Below, in pieces: positions 29,347-40,761 of a stretch of 47,426 nucleotides of DNA (its first letter is position 1; each line of letters begins with the position of its first letter). The translations under genes were made by a program, and so were the position numbers. Where the stretch lies: positions 1 through 47,426 of the forward strand of contig NZ_WANV01000018.1 in the NCBI RefSeq assembly GCF_015521605.1. Reading direction: 5' to 3'. The notes under the pieces are model-generated. The model was not told the DNA's origin. It ran no database searches and saw only the letters and a list, made by a program, of their open reading frames with translations. Source of the stretch: Thermococcus sp. (lineage in GTDB: Archaea; Methanobacteriota_B; Thermococci; Thermococcales; Thermococcaceae).

Positions 29347-32208
29347 TCAGGAAGAAAACAGGTCAAGGGCCCTGCTGGCCTCTTCAACCGCCTTGCCGAC
29401 CTTCAGCTCCATTCCAAGGGCGTTGGTTACCGTCCCTTCCTTCGCCGCCCAGAGGCCGGCAGGGAGCACCAGCACATCGCCCGACAGCTCCTTCTCCGTC
29501 CTTCCGATGACAACGTAGGCTTCAGCCTCGGGTATTCCGGTTATCCCGGCTTTTATGAGCCCCGCCGCGTTAACGCCCGGATAAAGTATCAGAGTCGGGA
29601 CATCGAGCGGTTCTCCCCCCTCAAGTATCGCAACGTCATAGTCTTCATCAACGATTTCCTTGCCCCTCAGGAGTATCTTGAGCAGCGGGTACTTCTCAAC
29701 GTCCGCCTTCAGGAGAACGCGCCTAGCATTCTTTATGTCCTCCAGCGTGGCAGTTGAGATGCCCCCACTTACGGTTGAACCTATTGGAACGCCCGTCTTC
29801 TCCGCAAAGGCCTTGAAGAAGGCTATCTCCTCGTTCGTCAGCTCCGGGGTGAGGATTAACGCGTAGTCCCTATCCGCTATGAACTTCCTGGCCTCCTCCC
29901 AGCTCACCGGTTCGCCGTTGAGGAGCGGCTGAGTTAGGTCTTCGGCCCACGGCCTGGCGAAGCGACAGACGTCGCAGAGGTGGCCGTTCCATGAGCTTTC
30001 CACCCTCGAAGCCCTCACGAGCATGCCGTCGTAAACCTCGACGTTCATCTCGCACGCAAAGCTACACCCGTTGCAGACCGTCTTTACCGGCCTCGTCTTC
30101 CAGGGCCCGGGCTTGACGAAGGGGAGCTTCTCGGTTATTGCCCCAACCGGACATAGGTCTATCATCTCCCCGATGAACCTGCCGTCCATATCCCCGAGGC
30201 TCTCCCCGAGCGGCGGCGAGATTCTCGTCTTAAATCCGCGGAACAGGTAGTCGAGGACTCCCTCTCCAGCGACCTCGTGGGTGAAGTTGACGCACTGGCC
30301 GCAGAGGACGCACTTGTTGTTGTCGAGCGTCACCCATGGGTGGCTCTCGTCGATTTCGAACTTGTTCTGCTCCCCCTCAAAGGCGTACTGTTCGGCACCG
30401 TAGAGCGTGGCGTACTCCCTAAGCTTGCACCTGAAGACCTCCATACAGCCGCAGCTCATGCACCGCCTGGCCTCTTCGAGGACCTGCTCCTCGGTTAAGG
30501 CCGGCTCGACCTCCTCAAAGGTTCTCTTCCTCCTTTCAGGATCGAGGAGCTTCACCTTAGCCCTCGGCTTCCTCTCAATATCCTCATAGTCCTTCTCCGT
30601 CACCTTCTTCCAGTGGTTGTAGGGCCTGAGGTCGAAGAGAACCCTGTACAGGTCGTCATCGCTTAAGACTTCCCCGATGTGCTTCTCCGGCTCGGTGAGG
30701 ACTTCCCTGGCCTTCTCCAGCTTGCCTTTGAGGTAGAGGTCTATCATTATCGCGGCCCTTCTTCCGGTGGCTATGCTCTCGATGACCGTTGAAGGCCCGA
30801 GGACGAGGTCTCCGCCGGCGAAAACTCCGGGAACGCTCGTCTGGAGCGTCACCTCATCAACGAGAGCCTTACCGCGCCTCGCCTCGATGCCGAGGCTCTT
30901 GAGGAACTCCTCGTCGCAGTACTGGCCTATGGCGAGGATGACGTTGTCGGCCCTGACGCGGAACTCCGAGCCCTCTATAGGTATCGGCCTCCTCCTTCCG
31001 CTGGAATCGGGCTCGCCAAGGCGCATCTTTATGAGTTCAACCTCCTCGACCTTCCCGTCGCCGAGAATCTTTACCGGGTTCGTCAGGAACATGAACTCCA
31101 CGCCTTCCTCCATCGCTTCCTCCACTTCCCTCTCGTTGGCAGGCACCTCGGCCTTCGAGCGGCGGTAAACAACGGTAACCTTCGCACCGAGCCTCAGAGC
31201 CGTCCTTGCGACGTCCATCGCGGTGTTTCCGCCACCAACGACTATGACGCGCTCCCCCAGCTCGACCTTTTCGCCGGTGTTGACCTTTCTGAGGAACTCT
31301 ATGCCGTGCATCACTCCCTCAAGCTCCTCGCCCGGAATCCCCATCTTTCTGCTTCTCCACGCGCCGACGCCGAGGAAAACCGCGTCGTACTTTTCGCGGA
31401 GCTCCTCAAGGGTTACGTCCCTTCCGAGGGCGGTGTTGGTCTTCACCTCGATTCCCGTGTTGATCACGGTCGCTATGTCTTTATCGAGCACGTCCCTCGG
31501 GAGCCTGTAGGGCGGTATTCCGTAGCGCATCATGCCGCCGAGCTCGGGCATCGCCTCTATTATGGTAACCTCGTGCCCCATGGTCCTGAGGTAGTAGGCG
31601 CAGGCAAGGCCGGCTGGCCCGCCACCGACGACGGCTATCCTTTTTCCGGTCGAGGGCGGAATCTCGGGCATCCACGGGCCGTGCTCAAGGTCGTAGTCCG
31701 CCGCGTACCTCTTCAGCTGCCTTATCGCGAGGGGCTCCTCCACGAGGTTTCTCCGGCAGGCGTCCTCACAGAAGGCCGGACAGACCCTCCCGAGAACCGC
31801 CGGGAGGATGTACTTCTCCTTCATCAGCTTGACCGCCTCGTGGTACTTGCCCATCGCTATGAGCGCGAGATATCCTTGCACGTCGCTGTGGGCCGGACAG
31901 CCGTCTTGGCACGGCCCGATGCAGTCGCCGTAGTGGTCGGAGAGGATGAGTTCAAGCGCGGTCTTTCTCATTGAAACAACTTCATCGCTGAGGGTCTCTA
32001 ACTCAAGCCCCTCCATCGGCTTGAGGGTACAAGAGGTGGTGACGCCCCTCTTGGTGGAGACGAGGCAGAGCCTGCAGGAGCCGTAGGGGTCAAGCTCGTT
32101 CGTGTAGCAGAAGCCGGGGACGTGCTCCCCAATCTCACGGAGGAAGTCTATGAGCGGCTTCCCCTCCGGGGCGTCGAGTTCCTTACCGTTGACTATGATC
32201 TTGACCAT
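29347..32208 (-). CDS. NuoG-like/GltD-like fusion flavoprotein, probable bifurcating transhydrogenase subunit A
   Basis: This 953-residue protein is a multidomain iron-sulfur flavoprotein. Order: a NuoG-type [2Fe-2S] domain (C34, C45, C48, C60), a GltD/NfnB-type ferredoxin-like helical domain (C96, C100, C104 and further cysteines to 151), FAD Rossmann GGGPAG (195-200), NADP(H) Rossmann GGGNTA (325-330) with YRRS at 348-351, a cysteine-rich linker (CMSCGC near 600), two [4Fe-4S] motifs (CVLCGQC and CPVGAI) and, from 712, the CNGCSFAC...CDVC motif of the formate dehydrogenase/NuoG Fe-S domain. The molybdopterin domains that follow in FDH are absent; the last 200 residues are a remnant fold. 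With NuoF and NuoE beside it, this is the composition described for the Sporomusa-type Nfn. The ATG at 32208 follows GGGGTGAG. It overlaps nothing but lies 1 base from the next gene. Confidence 0.9.
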   Translation of the reverse strand: MVKIIVNGKELDAPEGKPLIDFLREIGEHVPGFCYTNELDPYGSCRLCLVSTKRGVTTSCTLKPMEGLELETLSDEVVSMRKTALELILSDHYGDCIGPCQDGCPAHSDVQGYLALIAMGKYHEAVKLMKEKYILPAVLGRVCPAFCEDACRRNLVEEPLAIRQLKRYAADYDLEHGPWMPEIPPSTGKRIAVVGGGPAGLACAYYLRTMGHEVTIIEAMPELGGMMRYGIPPYRLPRDVLDKDIATVINTGIEVKTNTALGRDVTLEELREKYDAVFLGVGAWRSRKMGIPGEELEGVMHGIEFLRKVNTGEKVELGERVIVVGGGNTAMDVARTALRLGAKVTVVYRRSKAEVPANEREVEEAMEEGVEFMFLTNPVKILGDGKVEEVELIKMRLGEPDSSGRRRPIPIEGSEFRVRADNVILAIGQYCDEEFLKSLGIEARRGKALVDEVTLQTSVPGVFAGGDLVLGPSTVIESIATGRRAAIMIDLYLKGKLEKAREVLTEPEKHIGEVLSDDDLYRVLFDLRPYNHWKKVTEKDYEDIERKPRAKVKLLDPERRKRTFEEVEPALTEEQVLEEARRCMSCGCMEVFRCKLREYATLYGAEQYAFEGEQNKFEIDESHPWVTLDNNKCVLCGQCVNFTHEVAGEGVLDYLFRGFKTRISPPLGESLGDMDGRFIGEMIDLCPVGAITEKLPFVKPGPWKTRPVKTVCNGCSFACEMNVEVYDGMLVRASRVESSWNGHLCDVCRFARPWAEDLTQPLLNGEPVSWEEARKFIADRDYALILTPELTNEEIAFFKAFAEKTGVPIGSTVSGGISTATLEDIKNARRVLLKADVEKYPLLKILLRGKEIVDEDYDVAILEGGEPLDVPTLILYPGVNAAGLIKAGITGIPEAEAYVVIGRTEKELSGDVLVLPAGLWAAKEGTVTNALGMELKVGKAVEEASRALDLFSS

Positions 32209-32209
32209 T

Positions 32210-34012
32210 TCACTCACCCCCTGCATCGACTATCTCTATGGCGTTGAACCGGCACACCTCGTAGCAGGTTCCGCACTTGATGCACTCCTCCTGGTTGATA
32301 ACGTGGGGCCTGAGCCTCTCGCCGCTGATGGCCTTGACAGGGCAGAATATGGCACACGCCGTACAGCCGGTGCACCTGTCGGTTATTATGACGTACCTGA
32401 TGAGCGGCTTGCAGACCTTGGCTGGGCATTTTCCTTGGATATGGGCAAGGTATTCGTCCCTGAAGTAGCGGAGCGTCGTCAGAACGGGATTCGGGGCAGT
32501 CTGCCCGAGGCCGCAGAGCGAACCGGCTTTGACCTGGTATGCCAGCCTTTCGAGCTTCTCAAGGTCTTCCTCCGTTGCTTCGCCCTTCGTGAACTTGTCC
32601 AGAATCTCCCACATCCTCTTCGTTCCAAGGCGGCAGAAGGTGCACTTTCCGCAGGACTCCTTGACCGTGAAGTCGAGGAAGAACTTCGCCACATCGACCA
32701 TACATGTGTCCTCGTCCATAACGACCATTCCGCCGCTTCCCATTATCGCCCCGGTGGCGTTCACGCTCTCGTAGTCAACGGGTGTGTCGAATAAGTACTC
32801 GGGGATGCACCCGCCGGACGGACCGCCGAGCTGGACGGCTTTAATCCTCTTGCCGGTCTTGGTTCCCCCGCCTATCTCGTAGAGTATCTCCCTCAGCGTC
32901 ATGCCCATCGGAACCTCGACGTTTCCGCCGTGCTTTATCTTGCCCGACAGGGCGAAGACCTTGGTGCCCTTGCTCTTCTCGGTTCCTATCGAGGCGTAGG
33001 CCTTCCAGCCGTGTTTGATTATCCAGGGCACGTTCGCCCAGGTCTCAACGTTGTTGATGTTTGTCGGCTTGCCCCAGAGGCCCTTTTGAGCGGGGTAAGG
33101 TGGCCTCGGCCTCGGCATTCCTCTCTTCCCCTCTATCGAGGCTATCAATGCCGTCTCCTCGCCGCAGACAAAGGCTCCGGCACCTTCCTTGATGACGATG
33201 TCAAAGGAGAACCCGCTTCCGAGGATGTTCTCGCCGAGGAAGCCCCTTTCGCGGGCCTGCTTCAGCGCTATCTTGAGGCGCCTTATGGCGAGCGGGTACT
33301 CGGCGCGGACGTAGATAAAGCCCTTGGTTGCCCCAATCGCGTAGGCACCGATTATCATGCCCTCGATTACCCTGTGCGGGTCGCCCTCAAGGACGTTCCT
33401 GTCCATGAATGCCCCGGGGTCGCCCTCGTCGGCGTTGCAGACGATGTACTTCTCGTCGCCCTTTGCCTGCCTTGCAAACTTCCACTTCAGCCCCGTCGGG
33501 AATCCGGCACCGCCCCTCCCCCTGAGGCCGGACTTCATTATGACGTCTATTATCTCCTCGGGCTCCATCTGGAGGGCCTTCCTGAGGGCCTCGTAGCCAC
33601 CAGCTTGGATGTACTCGTCTATGTTCTCCGGGTCTATGTAGCCGGAGTTTTCGAGCACTATCTTCCTCTGCTTGGCGAAGTAGCCGTCAACGTCCCACGT
33701 CTTCCTCTCGCCGTTCTCCCACCAGTCGCGCTTGACTATCCATTCCTCGACCGGCTTTCCGTTGATAACGTGCTCCTCGATGATTCTCGGAACCTTCTTG
33801 GGGTCAACGTGACCGTAGGTGATTATCTCATCATCGGTGATGATGTCCACGAGGGGCTCGCGGTAGCACATACCTACACAGCCGACTATCTTGAGCCTGA
33901 TGTCAAGGCCTCTCTTCTCAAGCTCGGCCTTTATGGCCTCGTAGGTTTCCCTCGCGCCGGCAGCTATTCCACAGGAGTTCATGCCGACGGCGATGGCTTT
34001 AATTTCAGACAT
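32210..34012 (-). CDS. NuoF/HydB-like NADH-binding FMN iron-sulfur subunit
   Basis: The 600-residue protein has an N-terminal thioredoxin-like [2Fe-2S] domain (C14, C45, C49), the FMN site GLRGRGGAGFPTGLKW (162-177), the NADH site CNADEGDPGAFMDR (192-205), the [4Fe-4S] motif SCGKCTFCRLGTKR (about 442) and a C-terminal bacterial-type ferredoxin with two clusters (CTGCTAC from 547, CIKCGTC from 577). This extended form is that of HydB, StnB and NADP-reducing hydrogenase beta subunits rather than complex I NuoF. It overlaps NuoE by eight bases and is followed by the fusion flavoprotein. Confidence 0.95.
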   Translation of the reverse strand: MSEIKAIAVGMNSCGIAAGARETYEAIKAELEKRGLDIRLKIVGCVGMCYREPLVDIITDDEIITYGHVDPKKVPRIIEEHVINGKPVEEWIVKRDWWENGERKTWDVDGYFAKQRKIVLENSGYIDPENIDEYIQAGGYEALRKALQMEPEEIIDVIMKSGLRGRGGAGFPTGLKWKFARQAKGDEKYIVCNADEGDPGAFMDRNVLEGDPHRVIEGMIIGAYAIGATKGFIYVRAEYPLAIRRLKIALKQARERGFLGENILGSGFSFDIVIKEGAGAFVCGEETALIASIEGKRGMPRPRPPYPAQKGLWGKPTNINNVETWANVPWIIKHGWKAYASIGTEKSKGTKVFALSGKIKHGGNVEVPMGMTLREILYEIGGGTKTGKRIKAVQLGGPSGGCIPEYLFDTPVDYESVNATGAIMGSGGMVVMDEDTCMVDVAKFFLDFTVKESCGKCTFCRLGTKRMWEILDKFTKGEATEEDLEKLERLAYQVKAGSLCGLGQTAPNPVLTTLRYFRDEYLAHIQGKCPAKVCKPLIRYVIITDRCTGCTACAIFCPVKAISGERLRPHVINQEECIKCGTCYEVCRFNAIEIVDAGGE

Positions 34013-34469
34013 CGAGCTTCCCCTCCTTGAGATTTCTCATCAGCTTCCTGACCTTGTCGGGCGTGAGCTTGCCGAAGACCTTGTCGTTTATCATTATGAC
34101 CGGGGCCAAACTGCAGCATCCGAGGCACGCTACGCGCTCCAGCGTCACGAGGCCGTCCTCAGTTGTCTGACCTTCTTCTATGCCTAGCTCTTCCGTTATC
34201 GCCTGGGATATGTTCACGGCGCCGTTTACATGGCAGGCTGTCCCGTGGCAGATTTTGACGACGTACTTCCCGAGGGGCTCGAAGCGGAACTGGGCGTAGA
34301 AGGTCGCCACGCCGTAGACCCTGCTGAGAGGAACACCTAAGTAGTTCGCTATCTCCTCAAGGGCCTCCCTGGGGAGGTAGCCAAACTTTTCCTGAGTTCG
34401 CTGGAGAAGGGGAATCAGCGAGCTCGGTTCCGGAGGGTAAGAGCGGATATAACCGAGGGAGGATTCCAT
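34005..34469 (-). CDS. NuoE/HydC-like [2Fe-2S] subunit
   Basis: The 154-residue thioredoxin-fold protein carries the [2Fe-2S] ligands C74 and C79 (CHGTAC) and C115 and C119 (CLGCC), and LIPLLQRTQEKFGYLPREAL of the helical N-terminal part. It is the first gene of the NuoE-NuoF-fusion operon. GGTGAT precedes the ATG. A TATA box lies at 34514-34522. Confidence 0.95.
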   Translation of the reverse strand: MESSLGYIRSYPPEPSSLIPLLQRTQEKFGYLPREALEEIANYLGVPLSRVYGVATFYAQFRFEPLGKYVVKICHGTACHVNGAVNISQAITEELGIEEGQTTEDGLVTLERVACLGCCSLAPVIMINDKVFGKLTPDKVRKLMRNLKEGKLDV

Positions 34470-34513: not shown

Positions 34514-34522
34514 GTTTATAAG
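34514..34522 (-). promoter_or_regulatory. TATA box of the NuoE-NuoF-fusion operon
   Basis: CTTATAAAC on the minus strand, 45-53 bases before the NuoE-like start. Its start site would lie near 34492. Confidence 0.5.
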
Positions 34523-34539
34523 CGTGCACTAAAGTACAA

Positions 34540-34570
34540 GTTAGTAACATTTGGTTGGTAACCGTTTGTT
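34540..34570. promoter_or_regulatory. Double extended SurR-type operator
   Basis: The sequence reads GTTAGTAAC (34540-34548), five bases, GTTGGTAAC (34554-34562), five bases, GTT (34568-34570). Each unit fits the SurR consensus GTTn3AAC, and together they form two overlapping copies of the extended GTTn3AACn5GTT. SurR, the sulfur-responsive regulator of Thermococcales, activates hydrogenase operons when elemental sulfur is absent. The site lies immediately before the BRE/TATA of the hydrogenase operon and about 20 bases behind the TATA of the divergent operon, suitable for control of both. Confidence 0.8.
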
Positions 34571-34577
34571 TGAAAAA

Positions 34578-34587
34578 TTCTTAAATC
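34578..34587 (+). promoter_or_regulatory. TATA box of the sulfhydrogenase operon
   Basis: TTCTTAAATC preceded by GAAAAA. It is a weak TATA box, consistent with a need for an activator bound at the adjoining 34540-34570 site. Expected start site near 34608. Confidence 0.45.
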
Positions 34588-34636
34588 AATCCTTTACAAA
34601 CTTAAAATCGTAAGCCCGTTCGAGGCGGTGATGCCC

Positions 34637-35641
34637 TTGAGATACATAAAATTGCCTTCCGAAAACTTTGAGAAGTTCTTCAAGTCACTCGAAGCCTGGG
34701 GCACTGTCTATGCTCCAGTAAAGAAGGGGAGCATCTACTCTTTCCAGGAGGTGCACGACCCGGCGGAGATAGTGCTGGACTACAACAGAACCATGCTTCC
34801 TCCGAAGAAGTTCTTCTTCAGGCCCAGAGAGGCCATTCTCAGGCTAAAAAACGGCCGCTGGGAGGAGGAGATAGAGGCAGAACCGATGGTCCTCTTCGGA
34901 CTCCATTCCTGTGATATCCACGGTCTTAAGATACTCGACAAGGTGTACCTCGATGAACCCGCCGACCCGTACTACAAGAGCAGGCGGGAAAAGACCCTGA
35001 TAATAGGGATAAGCTGCATGCCCGACGAGTACTGCTTCTGCAAGAGCCTCGGCACGCACTTCGCAATGGACGGCTTCGACCTGTTCCTGCACGAACTGCC
35101 GGACGGATGGCTTGTGAGGATAGGCAGCGTCCGCGGTCATGAGATAGTATGGGAGGACGACGAACTGTTTGAAGAGGTGACCGACGAAGACCTGGCCAAC
35201 TTCAAAGAGTTCGAGGAGAAGCGCGCGAAATCTTTCCAGAAGGAGCTCCCGCAGGAAGGTCTCGCAGACATGCTCGATCTGGCGTACAACAGCCCGGTAT
35301 GGAAGAAGTACGCAGAGATATGCCTCGCATGCGGCAACTGCAACATGGTGTGCCCGACGTGCCGCTGCTACGAGGTCTGTGACCGCTGGATGGACGCGTA
35401 CAAAGCGGTCCGGGAGAGGCGCTACGACTCGTGCTTCATGGAGAACCACGGACTCGTTGCCGGGGGCCACAACTTCAGGCCCACCCGTCTTGACCGCTTC
35501 AGGCACCGCTATTACTGCAAGAGCTACTTTGACCCGTCCTCCGGCTACAACTGCGTCGGATGTGGGAGATGCGACGAGTTCTGCCCCGCGAAGATAGAGC
35601 ACGTCAAGGTTCTTGAGGAGGTTAGGGGGTCTCTGAAATGA
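34637..35641 (+). CDS. hydB: Sulfhydrogenase beta subunit (iron-sulfur electron-transfer)
   Basis: The beta subunit of the cytosolic group 3b NiFe hydrogenase, associated with sulfur reductase activity in Pyrococcus, passes electrons between the hydrogenase and the flavin dimer. The 334-residue protein has PPKKFFFRPREAILRLKNGR, ISCMPDEYCFC and two C-terminal [4Fe-4S] motifs, CLACGNCNMVCPTC and CVGCGRCDEFCP. The start is taken as the TTG at 34637: GGTGATGCCC lies just upstream and the protein then begins MRYIKLPSEN like its Pyrococcus relative; ATG at 34631 is the alternative. It overlaps the gamma gene by four bases. Confidence 0.95.
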   Translation: MRYIKLPSENFEKFFKSLEAWGTVYAPVKKGSIYSFQEVHDPAEIVLDYNRTMLPPKKFFFRPREAILRLKNGRWEEEIEAEPMVLFGLHSCDIHGLKILDKVYLDEPADPYYKSRREKTLIIGISCMPDEYCFCKSLGTHFAMDGFDLFLHELPDGWLVRIGSVRGHEIVWEDDELFEEVTDEDLANFKEFEEKRAKSFQKELPQEGLADMLDLAYNSPVWKKYAEICLACGNCNMVCPTCRCYEVCDRWMDAYKAVRERRYDSCFMENHGLVAGGHNFRPTRLDRFRHRYYCKSYFDPSSGYNCVGCGRCDEFCPAKIEHVKVLEEVRGSLK

Positions 35642-36513
35642 GCGAGAACCCGTATGTGACCCACAACGCCAGGATTCTCGAAGTGAAGGACCTGACATCA
35701 AGGGAAAAGCTCTTCACGCTACGCTTCCTCGATCCCGAGGTCGAGGCCAACTTCAACTTCAAGCCAGGGCAGTTCGTCATCGTTGACATACGCGGTTTCG
35801 GGGAGTTCCCGATAAGCATATGCTCTTCCCCGACGAGGAGGGGCTACCTCCAGCTCTGCATCAGGAAAGCCGGCAGGATGACCAAGTTCATACACAAGAT
35901 GAAGGAGGGCGATATAATAGGAATCCGCGGGCCCTACGGAAACGGCTTCCCCATGGAGAAGATGGAGGGCTCCAACCTGATACTCGTTGCAGGTGGCCTC
36001 GGAATGGCACCCCTCCGTTCGGTGCTCTGGTACGCCATCGACACCGGCAAATACGAGAACGTCTGGCTGCTCTATGGAACCAAAGCCTACGAGGACATAC
36101 TCTTCCGCGACGAGATAATACACCTCCTGAAGCACGGTGATGCCATGAACTGCTCGGTAAAGCTGGCATACGAGGTCGAAAGCCCGTCGTGCATATATCT
36201 GGAGAGGGGCTTCTCGGACAGGGTGTGCAAGGGTGTCGTCACCGACCTGTTCAGGGGGGAGGAGTTCGACGTGAACAACACCTACGCCCTCATCTGCGGC
36301 CCGCCGGTCATGTACAAGTTCGTCATAAGGGAGCTCCTGGATAGGAAGCTCTCTCCGGGCAGGATATACATGACCCTTGAGAGGAGAATGCGCTGTGGGA
36401 TAGGCAAGTGCGGCCACTGCATCGTCGGAACGAGCACGTCCATCAAGTACGTCTGCAAGGACGGTCCGGTCTTCACGTACTGGGACGCTCTCTCCACAAG
36501 GGGGTTGATATGA
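35638..36513 (+). CDS. hydG: Sulfhydrogenase gamma subunit (FAD/NAD(P)-binding)
   Basis: The gamma subunit is a ferredoxin-NADP reductase-like flavoprotein of 291 residues that transfers hydride to NADP+. It has KPGQFVIVDIRGFGEFPISI (FAD site), ILVAGGLGMAPLRS (nucleotide site), ALICGPPVMYK and a C-terminal [2Fe-2S] motif CGIGKCGHC...C. It overlaps its neighbours at both ends (ATGA arrangements) within the four-gene operon. Confidence 0.95.
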   Translation: MSENPYVTHNARILEVKDLTSREKLFTLRFLDPEVEANFNFKPGQFVIVDIRGFGEFPISICSSPTRRGYLQLCIRKAGRMTKFIHKMKEGDIIGIRGPYGNGFPMEKMEGSNLILVAGGLGMAPLRSVLWYAIDTGKYENVWLLYGTKAYEDILFRDEIIHLLKHGDAMNCSVKLAYEVESPSCIYLERGFSDRVCKGVVTDLFRGEEFDVNNTYALICGPPVMYKFVIRELLDRKLSPGRIYMTLERRMRCGIGKCGHCIVGTSTSIKYVCKDGPVFTYWDALSTRGLI

Positions 36514-37250
36514 TGGACAAGCTCAAGTTGGCAGTTTTCGAACTTACCGACTGCGGCGGATGTGCCCTCAACATTCTCTTCCTCTATGAAAAGCTCTTCG
36601 ACCTCCTCGAATTCTACGAGATAACCGAGTTCCACATGGCGACCAGCCTGAGCGAGGAGAACCACTACGACGTTGCACTCGTAACCGGAACCGTTTCAAC
36701 CCAGCGCGACCTGAACCTCCTCAAAGAGGCGAGAAACCACTCCGAATACCTCATAGCCCTCGGAACCTGCGCAACCCACGGGTCTGTTCAGGGGAGCGTT
36801 GAACTCCCCATAAGGGAGAAGCTGAAGGCCGTTTACGGGGACAGTGGTAATCCGATGCGCGCCCTCGACTCCAAACCGGTCGTCGAATACGTCGCCGTTG
36901 ATTTCGCCCTTCCGGGATGCCCGTACGACAAGGAGGAAGTCTACCAGGTGCTCATCGACATTGCCAAGGGCATCGAGCCTGTTAGAAAGGACTACCCCGT
37001 CTGCCTGGAGTGCAAGCTCAACGAGTACGAGTGCGTGCTGGTAAAGAAGGGCCTTCCGTGCCTCGGCCCGATAACCTACGGAGGTTGCAAGGCTGTCTGC
37101 GTGCGCTCGGGCCTCGGATGCATAGGCTGCCGCGGTCCGCTTCCGGGGGAGGTTAACCCGGCCAGCGAGTACGAGATTCTCAAGAGCCTCGGCTACGATG
37201 ACGAGTACATCGTGAGGAAGTTCAAGACCTTCGCGAGGTGGGAGCCATGA
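36513..37250 (+). CDS. hydD: Sulfhydrogenase delta subunit (NiFe hydrogenase small subunit)
   Basis: The small subunit of 245 residues carries three [4Fe-4S] clusters: the proximal cluster ligands in ELTDCGGCALN (C15, C18) with GTCATHGSVQG and CPVCLEC, then KGLPCLGPITYGGCKAVC and GCIGCRG. Two adjacent ATG codons are possible (36510 and 36513); the second overlaps the gamma stop by one base and begins MDKLKLAVFE. It differs considerably from the Pyrococcus hydrogenase I delta subunit as I remember it and may be closer to the second sulfhydrogenase. Confidence 0.94.
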   Translation: MDKLKLAVFELTDCGGCALNILFLYEKLFDLLEFYEITEFHMATSLSEENHYDVALVTGTVSTQRDLNLLKEARNHSEYLIALGTCATHGSVQGSVELPIREKLKAVYGDSGNPMRALDSKPVVEYVAVDFALPGCPYDKEEVYQVLIDIAKGIEPVRKDYPVCLECKLNEYECVLVKKGLPCLGPITYGGCKAVCVRSGLGCIGCRGPLPGEVNPASEYEILKSLGYDDEYIVRKFKTFARWEP

Positions 37251-38494
37251 TAATCGAGATGAGAGAATTCACGCGCGTTGAGGGCAACGGCAAAGCCGAG
37301 ATAGTCATCGAGGACGGCGAGGTAAAGGACGTCAGGCTCCAGATAGTTGAGGGGCCGCGCTTCTTCGAACTCCTGACCCTGGGAAGACACTACTACGATG
37401 TTCCCGACCTTGAGGCAAGGATATGCGCCATCTGTTACCTCTCCCACAGCGTTGCCTCAGTCCTTGGAATCGAGAGGGCCTTCGGAGTTGAAGTTCCGGA
37501 GGAGATAACACTCCTCAGGGAACTCGGCCTGATAGGAGAGTTCCTTGAGAGCCACGCGCTTCACCTCTACCTCCTAGTTGCACCGGACGTCTTCGGCTAT
37601 CCCGACGCCATAAGGATGGCGACGAAGCACGGCGAGCTGGTGAAAGAGGGACTGGCCCTCAAGGCCTTTGGGAACAGGCTCAGAGTCATCATAGGCGGCA
37701 GGGAGATACACGGCATAAACGTCAAGCCCGGCGGCTTTGGAAGGTATCCAACCGTTGAGGAGCTGGAGGAGATAGAGAGGGAGAGCGAAGCCCTTCTCCG
37801 GCTGGCCAGGCGGGCCGTGAGGCTCTTCGCACAGTTAGACCCCTACGGAGAGAGGGCAAAGCACTTCGTTGCCACCGACGGCTACCTGTGGGGTGAGAAG
37901 CTGATATCCGACGAGGAAGGCACCTTCCACTACACCGAGAGGATAGAGGAGCGGTCCCTCGTCTACAGCTTCGCCAAGCAGAGCAGGTACCGGGGCGAAG
38001 CATTTTTTGTCGGAGCGCTTCCGAGGCTGCTCCTTAAGTCGGAGATGCTCACCCCCACGGCAAAGAGGCTCTTTGAGGAGCACAGGGAGAAACTGGAGAC
38101 AGGCTACGTCAGCTACAACAACCTGGCCCAGGCGATAGAGCTGGTCTACTCCCTCGAAAAGGCCAACGAGATAGCGAGGATCCTGCTCGATAGGGGCATC
38201 GATGGAGAGAACGTCCCCGTCGAGCCCAGGGAAGGTGAGGGCATCGGCTACGTGGAAGCGCCGAGGGGGCTCCTCATACACCACTACCGCACCGATTCCG
38301 AGGGCAAGATAGCCTACTCCAACATAATAACGCCAACGGCTCTGAACCACGCGATGATAGAGGCCAGCCTTCTGAAGGAAGCCAGGGAACTCTATGGCGA
38401 AGTTGACGAGGGCAGGATGATAGGGCGCCTTGAGGAGACGGTGAGGGCGTTCGATCCGTGCATATCCTGCTCGGTGCACATTGTCCGGTTATGA
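37247..38494 (+). CDS. hydA: Sulfhydrogenase alpha subunit (NiFe hydrogenase large subunit)
   Basis: The catalytic subunit of 415 residues binds the NiFe centre through RICAIC near the N terminus and DPCISCSVH at the C terminus. Four residues, IVRL, follow the histidine and are presumably removed by a maturation protease. It belongs to group 3b, cytosolic NADP(H)-dependent hydrogenases. The ATG overlaps the delta stop by four bases. It is the last gene of the operon; a T-rich tract follows. Confidence 0.96.
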   Translation: MIIEMREFTRVEGNGKAEIVIEDGEVKDVRLQIVEGPRFFELLTLGRHYYDVPDLEARICAICYLSHSVASVLGIERAFGVEVPEEITLLRELGLIGEFLESHALHLYLLVAPDVFGYPDAIRMATKHGELVKEGLALKAFGNRLRVIIGGREIHGINVKPGGFGRYPTVEELEEIERESEALLRLARRAVRLFAQLDPYGERAKHFVATDGYLWGEKLISDEEGTFHYTERIEERSLVYSFAKQSRYRGEAFFVGALPRLLLKSEMLTPTAKRLFEEHREKLETGYVSYNNLAQAIELVYSLEKANEIARILLDRGIDGENVPVEPREGEGIGYVEAPRGLLIHHYRTDSEGKIAYSNIITPTALNHAMIEASLLKEARELYGEVDEGRMIGRLEETVRAFDPCISCSVHIVRL

Positions 38495-39363: not shown

Positions 39364-39394
39364 CTCTTGAAATAAATTTTAAAGGGTGAGAACT

Positions 39395-40060
39395 ATGAAC
39401 TGGGAAAAAGCCACCGAGATCGCTGACTCCCTGCTCCCCGGCGAAACAGTTCTCGTGAAATATACTACGTCCTACATCCCCGAATTCCTGCTGAAGTTCT
39501 TCGTGGACTACTCCAAGAGAAAGGAAATCCCCCTCCTCATAGATGACAATTTTGATACCCTCCACTCAATCGCGATCCGCGCAGAGATGATGAACCTACC
39601 CCTGAAGCTGGACGACGTGTACGTTATAAAAACCGGCGGAAAACTGGACGTCGGGAACGTTGTGGCAAAGGTCCAATTCCACCCAGACCCAAGGGTCTAT
39701 CTCAAGAACTACGAGGAGGCCATACAGGAGGCACTGAAGGAAATCCCAACTCCCGTGATAAACCTCGTAATCGGGGTGGAGAATCTGTTTCTCATAATAA
39801 GAACGCCCCTCGACGCGTACCGGCTGATACTGGCGATGCAGAAGTTCATGGGCAACAGGAACAGGAAGGCGTTTTACATAGTCAACGAGACCGTAATGGA
39901 GAACCTTCCAATAAAGGTTCTCCAGGAGTTCGAGAGGATAGCCACCACCGTGATAAGGCTCACGCCGTACCATACCGGCGCGACCCTGCGGGTTATCAAA
40001 AGCATCAATCCCAATCTCATAGGGAGGGAGGAGAAAATAGACGTCGAGGGGTGGATGTAA
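39395..40060 (+). CDS. DUF257-family protein
   Basis: The 221-residue protein belongs to a Thermococcales family of unknown function (DUF257). Conserved features seen in all three copies here are a GETVLVKYTTSYIPEFLLKF-like first strand and helix, PLLIDDNFDTLHSI, DDVYVIKTGGKLDVGNVVAK and AFYIVNETVMENLP. The alternation of strands and helices recalls a RecA/KaiC-type core, but no Walker A motif is present; that link is inference. It overlaps the next DUF257 gene by one base and is cotranscribed with it. Confidence 0.85.
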   Translation: MNWEKATEIADSLLPGETVLVKYTTSYIPEFLLKFFVDYSKRKEIPLLIDDNFDTLHSIAIRAEMMNLPLKLDDVYVIKTGGKLDVGNVVAKVQFHPDPRVYLKNYEEAIQEALKEIPTPVINLVIGVENLFLIIRTPLDAYRLILAMQKFMGNRNRKAFYIVNETVMENLPIKVLQEFERIATTVIRLTPYHTGATLRVIKSINPNLIGREEKIDVEGWM

Positions 40061-40761
40061 TGGAGGCGTTTAAAAAACCCGTTCTAGTCACCAAGAAGGA
40101 TCTAGACGCCATGGTAGAACAGATCTGGCCGGGAGGCACTACAATAATTGAAAACCGCGGTGCCCTGGGGGCCGAGTTTGTCCTCCATGCGTTCATTCAG
40201 TACTCAAAAAGAAAGCGCATACCCCTCATAGTGGAGGACATCTTCGACACGCTCCCCATCTACGTAGGGCACCTCAGGCTGATGGGCGCCAGCGTGGAGG
40301 AAAAGGACATCACGGTGATCAAGGTTGGCGGGGCGCAGGAAGCGGGGAACGTCATAGCCAGGATCAGGTTTGAGAACGACCCCCACGTGTACCAGAGGAA
40401 GATCGATCAGGAGCTTCAGAAGGTAGTAGGCGATGGTGTTTACATACACCTTGTTCTCGGGCTGGAGAGGCTGCTGTTCCTCCAGGGCGACGTTCGCAGC
40501 GCATACACCCTTCTGGGACTCATAAAGCAGAAACTCGGTGACAAACGCAGAATAAACGTCTACCTGGTAGAGGCGCCCATAATGGAAACACTGGACTTCA
40601 ACCCCCTGCCAATGCTGGAAGACATAGCGACCTCCGCGATAGAGCTCACCAGCGAGGGAGAGCTCATAAGAATGAAGTTCAGGAAGTCGGTGTTCACGCT
40701 GCTCATGCACAAGGAATACGTCCTCATATCTCCCAGGGAGACACTGCGGTGGTGGAGTTGA
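40060..40761 (+). CDS. DUF257-family protein, second copy
   Basis: The 233-residue paralogue of the preceding gene contains GAEFVLHAFIQYSKRKRIPL, VEDIFDTLPIYVGHL, ITVIKVGGAQEAGNVIARIR and INVYLVEAPIMETLDFNPLP. Identity to its neighbour is moderate, so the duplication is old. The ATG shares a base with the preceding stop codon. The end overlaps a small barrel protein gene by four bases. Confidence 0.85.
   Translation: MEAFKKPVLVTKKDLDAMVEQIWPGGTTIIENRGALGAEFVLHAFIQYSKRKRIPLIVEDIFDTLPIYVGHLRLMGASVEEKDITVIKVGGAQEAGNVIARIRFENDPHVYQRKIDQELQKVVGDGVYIHLVLGLERLLFLQGDVRSAYTLLGLIKQKLGDKRRINVYLVEAPIMETLDFNPLPMLEDIATSAIELTSEGELIRMKFRKSVFTLLMHKEYVLISPRETLRWWS

Follow-up and report, generated by a model that had tools for sequence, protein, structure and literature searches.

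Whether a regulatory site lying between two divergent operons serves one of them or both is the question raised by a stretch of 47,426 nucleotides of Thermococcus sp. (contig NZ_WANV01000018.1 of assembly GCF_015521605.1, the whole of which is called the window here). In this window, a row of putative half-sites for the regulator SurR separates the operon of sulfhydrogenase II (SHII) from that of a putative transhydrogenase, NfnABC. It is likely that this row is a bidirectional SurR operator, by which SHII and NfnABC are switched on together when sulfur is lacking.

The 31 bases at 34540-34570, GTTAGTAACATTTGGTTGGTAACCGTTTGTT, fit GTTn3AACn5GTTn3AACn5GTT exactly, as the initial annotation of this DNA had claimed, and the motif scan confirms it. 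They contain two overlapping exact copies of the extended site GTTn3AACn5GTT on the plus strand (34540..34556 and 34554..34570), and a third exact one on the minus strand (34546..34562, GTTACCAACCAAATGTT). The array is nevertheless longer than was claimed, as it reaches a degenerate sixth half-site, an AAG in register at 34532..34534 that reads CTT in place of GTT on the minus strand. The predicted operator array thus spans 34532..34570, with six half-sites in a single register (AAG n5 GTT n3 AAC n5 GTT n3 AAC n5 GTT) and a dyad centre at 34551. The sixth half-site reads AAG in every NfnABC promoter examined. All three matches of the extended motif in the window (two plus, one minus) lie inside the array, against a mean of 0.12 in shuffled windows. 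The short GTTn3AAC motif is found 13 times in the window for 7.9 expected, a difference that is not significant and provides no evidence alone. Across its 42 contigs (2.03 Mb), the genome has 34 matches to the extended motif and six to a reversed-pattern control. The pattern of five half-sites occurs once in the genome; from base composition, its chance occurrence in this intergenic stretch has a probability of about 6e-7.

The genome also codes for the regulator. A SurR ortholog of 230 residues (locus L031) matches PF0095 (PDB 2qlz; E = 1.7e-90) and has retained its CxxC motif, as CTEC, so that a SurR motif in the promoter and a CxxC-bearing SurR are found in the same genome, as for members of the SurR regulon. 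The surR gene is divergent from a pdo-like gene, and SurR sites lie between the two. Other extended sites precede SHI and mbh-like, mbs-like, nsr-like, NfnII-like, pdo, surR, hypA, hypF, and cbiM-like genes, some of these identities being based on sequence resemblance. Many of the 34 extended sites thus appear to stand before known SurR targets (SHI, mbh, mbs-like, nsr-like, pdo, surR, hypA, and hypF). The promoter of the cbiM-like gene (nickel/cobalt uptake; L039, 1549-1600) has a near-identical array, GTTn3AACn5GTTn3AATn5GTT, 9 bp from a TATA-like CTTTTATTT.

The plus-strand operon, shyB-shyC-shyD-shyA (34628..38494), codes for SHII. Its four products pass their own NCBIfam equivalog cut-offs (NF040829, NF040830, NF040831, and NF040828) and fail those of SHI, which narrows the hydrogenase of the initial annotation to SHII; SHI, excluded by these cut-offs, occupies a separate locus (L053). 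The GTG at 34628 is unlikely to be the start of ShyB, as relatives align from MRYxKLP, which suggests the TTG at 34637, with GGTGATG as ribosome-binding site. The minus-strand operon (34469-29347) brings together a NuoE-like subunit (34005..34469; PF01257), a NuoF-like subunit (32210..34012; PF01512 and PF10589), and NfnA (29347..32226; 959 amino acids), in which a GltD/NfnL-like domain is inserted in a NuoG-like protein. This is the set of subunits that characterizes NfnABC, and residues 3-948 of NfnA match chain A (NfnA) of PDB 9n5u with 1778 bits. We take this operon, previously described as transhydrogenase-like and now pinned down by domain and structure matches, to encode NfnABC of the Nfn-Bfu/Stn/Nso type, a putative bifurcating ferredoxin:NAD(P) transhydrogenase. 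A formate dehydrogenase, suggested by a Molybdop_Fe4S4 remnant, was ruled out, as there is no molybdopterin domain and NfnA gives the best match. The enzyme goes by the name Nso in T. litoralis and by Stn in Sporomusa (PMC7483475). NfnA resembles the protein of T. sibiricus (PDB 9n5u) over nearly its full length and shares a short C-terminus with Nso of T. litoralis, whereas it is about 200 residues shorter than Stn of Sporomusa ovata. Members of the Thermococcaceae are reported to carry either Nfn-Bfu or the bifurcating NfnAB, but not both (PMC9304861).

The position of the array relative to the two promoters is symmetrical. For the SHII operon, the predicted TATA box is CTTAAATC (34580..34587, plus strand), which follows a BRE-like (B recognition element) TGAAAAATT; for the NfnABC operon, it is CTTATAAA, at 34515..34522 on the minus strand. 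A gap of 9 bp separates the right outer GTT from the SHII box and the left outer AAG from the NfnABC box. The centre of the array coincides with the centre of the TATA pair (34551), so that the array and both TATA boxes are dyad-symmetric. The initial annotation was close in placing the minus-strand TATA box about 20 bases away (17 bp from the exact array); of its statement that the array touches the hydrogenase TATA region, the contact with the BRE stands, the TATA box itself being 9 bp away. In the mbh and hypF promoters of the same genome, the distance from the last GTT to the TATA region is likewise about 9 bp. Among relatives, the TTATAA of the NfnABC promoter and its spacing are invariant, and the SHII TATA box is conserved where SHII is intact and decayed where SHII has been lost.

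The array was then compared among 94 genomes of the family. Of the 94, 45 contain the pattern TTATAA-n10-AAG-n5-GTT-n3-AAC-n5-GTT-n5-C-n5-GTT, 46 times in all, and none contains its reverse. All but one of the 46 occurrences adjoin the start of nuoE, the exception (in G066) being at a contig end. Among 36 distinct NfnABC-promoter sequences, 17 of 18 half-site columns are invariant, versus 1 of 21 spacer columns; the sole variable half-site column is the first A of one AAC, replaced by C in a subset spanning several genera. Hence, the half-sites are conserved above background in orthologous promoters. Other Thermococcales have the unrelated NfnAB in place of NfnABC, usually with a related array beside it. 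In these genomes, the coordinates place the NfnAB large-subunit gene next to SHII, 13-17 of the 18 half-site bases are kept (the maximum in shuffled sequences is usually 9-12), and the 9-bp spacing on the SHII side is nearly always retained.

Genomes that have lost SHII provide a natural test of which operon the array serves. NfnABC occurs without an intact SHII in five genomes, two of which retain shyB remnants (L088 and L090) and three of which show none (L089, L091, and L092). These represent at least three and most likely four independent losses, as the label requires four changes on the NuoE+NuoF tree, three of them forced by well-supported branches. When each was compared with its nearest SHII-bearing relative, differences were found at 0 of 90 half-site positions, 20 of 105 spacer positions, and 47 of 85 positions of the former SHII core promoter; Fisher p-values for this comparison assume independent sites and therefore overstate the case. 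All 18 half-site bases are kept in all five genomes. The loss in L090 is recent and carries little weight; L089, L091, and L092 carry the most, because their spacers have diverged. This is the pattern of an operator that selection maintains for NfnABC alone, and the retention of the half-sites after SHII loss indicates that the array serves NfnABC itself. Taken with the SHII-bearing genomes, the sequence patterns indicate that the array is kept under selection for both operons.

Some genomes show alterations on the SHII side. In G063 (L064, about 1500-1693), an insertion of about 95 bp with inverted ends ACTGTCA...TGACAGT, resembling a small transposable element, lies between the SHII TATA box and shyB. 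In G076 (L068), about 0.9 kb of inserted DNA with transposase-like reading frames stands between shyB and an array that is itself intact, cutting off SHII and leaving the NfnABC side untouched. A single in-frame TAA in the shyB of G068 (L028) possibly reflects SHII loss at an early stage.

How might such an array work? SurR sites upstream of BRE/TATA are associated with activation, and overlapping ones with repression (PMC12401011; PMC10025317). Here, the sites lie upstream at both predicted promoters, as they do at SurR-activated genes, which predicts co-activation without sulfur; the sign of control is read from site position alone. Reduced SurR, in the absence of elemental sulfur, would bind the row of half-sites and help recruit TBP/TFB at both divergent promoters, as suggested by the outermost half-site on either side, which sits 9 bp before a TATA box. 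SHII and NfnABC would thereby be activated together. Elemental sulfur would oxidise the CxxC of SurR, SurR would leave, and the expression of both operons would fall. An NADP-linked hydrogenase would in this way be paired, during hydrogen production, with a transhydrogenase that balances ferredoxin, NAD, and NADP. Binding, the sign of control, the simultaneous use of the array by both promoters, and the number of SurR dimers involved are all predictions from sequence. The initial annotation had predicted that the transhydrogenase operon falls under sulfur control along with the hydrogenase, and this proposal gains support from the five SHII-less genomes and from the presence of SurR: one switch probably turns on both operons in the absence of sulfur.

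Several observations weigh against this explanation. In two of the five SHII-less genomes, a rearrangement ends near the array, and part of the apparent decay of the SHII promoter is in fact replacement. SHII does not respond to sulfur in Palaeococcus pacificus (PMC6981617). The proteome of T. onnurineus is inconsistent for SHII and NfnI, the SHII gamma subunit (TON_0054) and FNOR (TON_0056) being found only without sulfur and SudA (TON_0057) only with it (PMC4463584). Finally, T. litoralis Nso is described, in a passage of PMC7483475 citing Toth 2008, as an NADPH-dependent sulfur oxidoreductase, and the naming of this enzyme as a sulfur reductase would fit repression. The last two points also favor an alternative in which SurR activates SHII and represses NfnABC, as it does mbs, nsr, and pdo: NfnABC, or Nso, would then be an NADPH-dependent sulfur reductase needed when sulfur is present, and SudA belongs to the analogous NfnI. 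One would then expect a SurR site over or after the NfnABC TATA box, as found in this genome at the nsr, pdo, mbs, and NfnII promoters. However, neither the NfnABC TATA box nor that of SHII, both predicted, is overlapped or followed by such a site. Moreover, Nfn-Bfu of T. sibiricus is a bifurcating ferredoxin:NAD(P) enzyme, for which bifurcation among NADH, ferredoxin, and NADP has been shown (PMC9304861). We therefore consider repression of NfnABC unlikely.

Even less probable is that the array is an operator for the hydrogenase only, with NfnABC as a mere neighbour. The second extended site lies directly against the SHII BRE, just as at mbh and hypF, and the SHII-side spacing is identical where the neighbour is NfnAB, both of which one would expect of an operator dedicated to SHII. 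Yet the half-sites all persist in the five SHII-less genomes, including two sister genomes with diverged spacers, and the AAG half-site and its spacing to the NfnABC TATA box are invariant. This explanation is largely refuted. The least probable explanation is that another regulator or an RNA element conserves the region and the GTTn3AAC match is incidental. A 9-bp TAGTGCAC next to the NfnABC TATA box is also conserved and SurR does not account for it, but conservation matches the register of the SurR half-sites precisely, and the genome contains just one exact copy of the TGCACTAAAGTACA element. An Rfam search of the region gave no significant match, and the RNA element was rejected on this ground.

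With co-activation by SurR as the preferred explanation, the sequence next to the NfnABC TATA box deserves a comment. Between this box and the outer half-site lies a 9-bp element, TAGTGCACG (34523..34531, minus strand), that is well conserved, with a nearly invariant GTGCA. It would be an atypical BRE: it is unlike the usual archaeal one, and the element around it has no second copy in the genome. A site for a second, independent regulator in the conserved block GTGCACTAAAGTACA was also considered. An exact copy of the block occurs nowhere else in the genome, and its one-mismatch matches are few and scattered; one of them is near another SurR site (L033), where the layout differs, with GTGCAC downstream of the TATA box. 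This possibility was rejected because a sixth half-site accounts better for the AAG and its spacing, which leaves only the 9-bp TAGTGCAC part of the block without explanation. Elsewhere in the window, the SHII operon is followed by two tandem DUF257 genes of unknown function (39386-40761).

The array shares its half-sites, its extended motif, and its activator position just upstream of BRE/TATA with the SurR operators of Pyrococcus furiosus and Thermococcus (mbh, SHI, SHII, and hyp, which are activated, and mbs, nsr, and pdo, which are repressed), and it shares with them the CxxC SurR encoded in the genome. In contrast to these, it has six half-sites in one register, placed symmetrically between the two TATA boxes of two divergent operons. 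The closest parallel is the divergent SHII/NfnI (NfnAB) promoter of T. piezophilus, T. onnurineus, and Pyrococcus, where SHII occupies the same position and is accompanied by a related array with the same 9-bp spacing on the SHII side. There, however, the divergent operon is NfnAB, whose architecture is unrelated to that of NfnABC, and the array is different in its left half. In T. piezophilus, long SurR motifs were predicted 69 and 72 bp upstream of SHII and NfnI (PMC8595942). SurR control of SHII is thus already known and that of NfnI already predicted. No description of SurR control of NfnABC, of any NfnABC regulation, or of the symmetric six-half-site layout was found in the literature examined, which did not cover the primary SurR papers. 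What is new here is the symmetric architecture and the evolutionary test, and the array is a well-supported variant of a known operator type.

A broader possibility, which we advance tentatively, is that the operator stayed in place while the adjoining transhydrogenase was swapped for an unrelated enzyme (NfnAB or NfnABC), one symmetric assembly of SurR on six half-sites activating two promoters at once; the switch would then be evolutionarily steadier than the enzyme it controls. In conclusion, these results place the NfnABC transhydrogenase within the sulfur/hydrogen switch of the Thermococcales, provide a regulatory argument that this enzyme works on the hydrogen (no-sulfur) side and not as the sulfur reductase implied by the older name Nso, and offer the symmetric array as a clean model of an archaeal activator serving two promoters.
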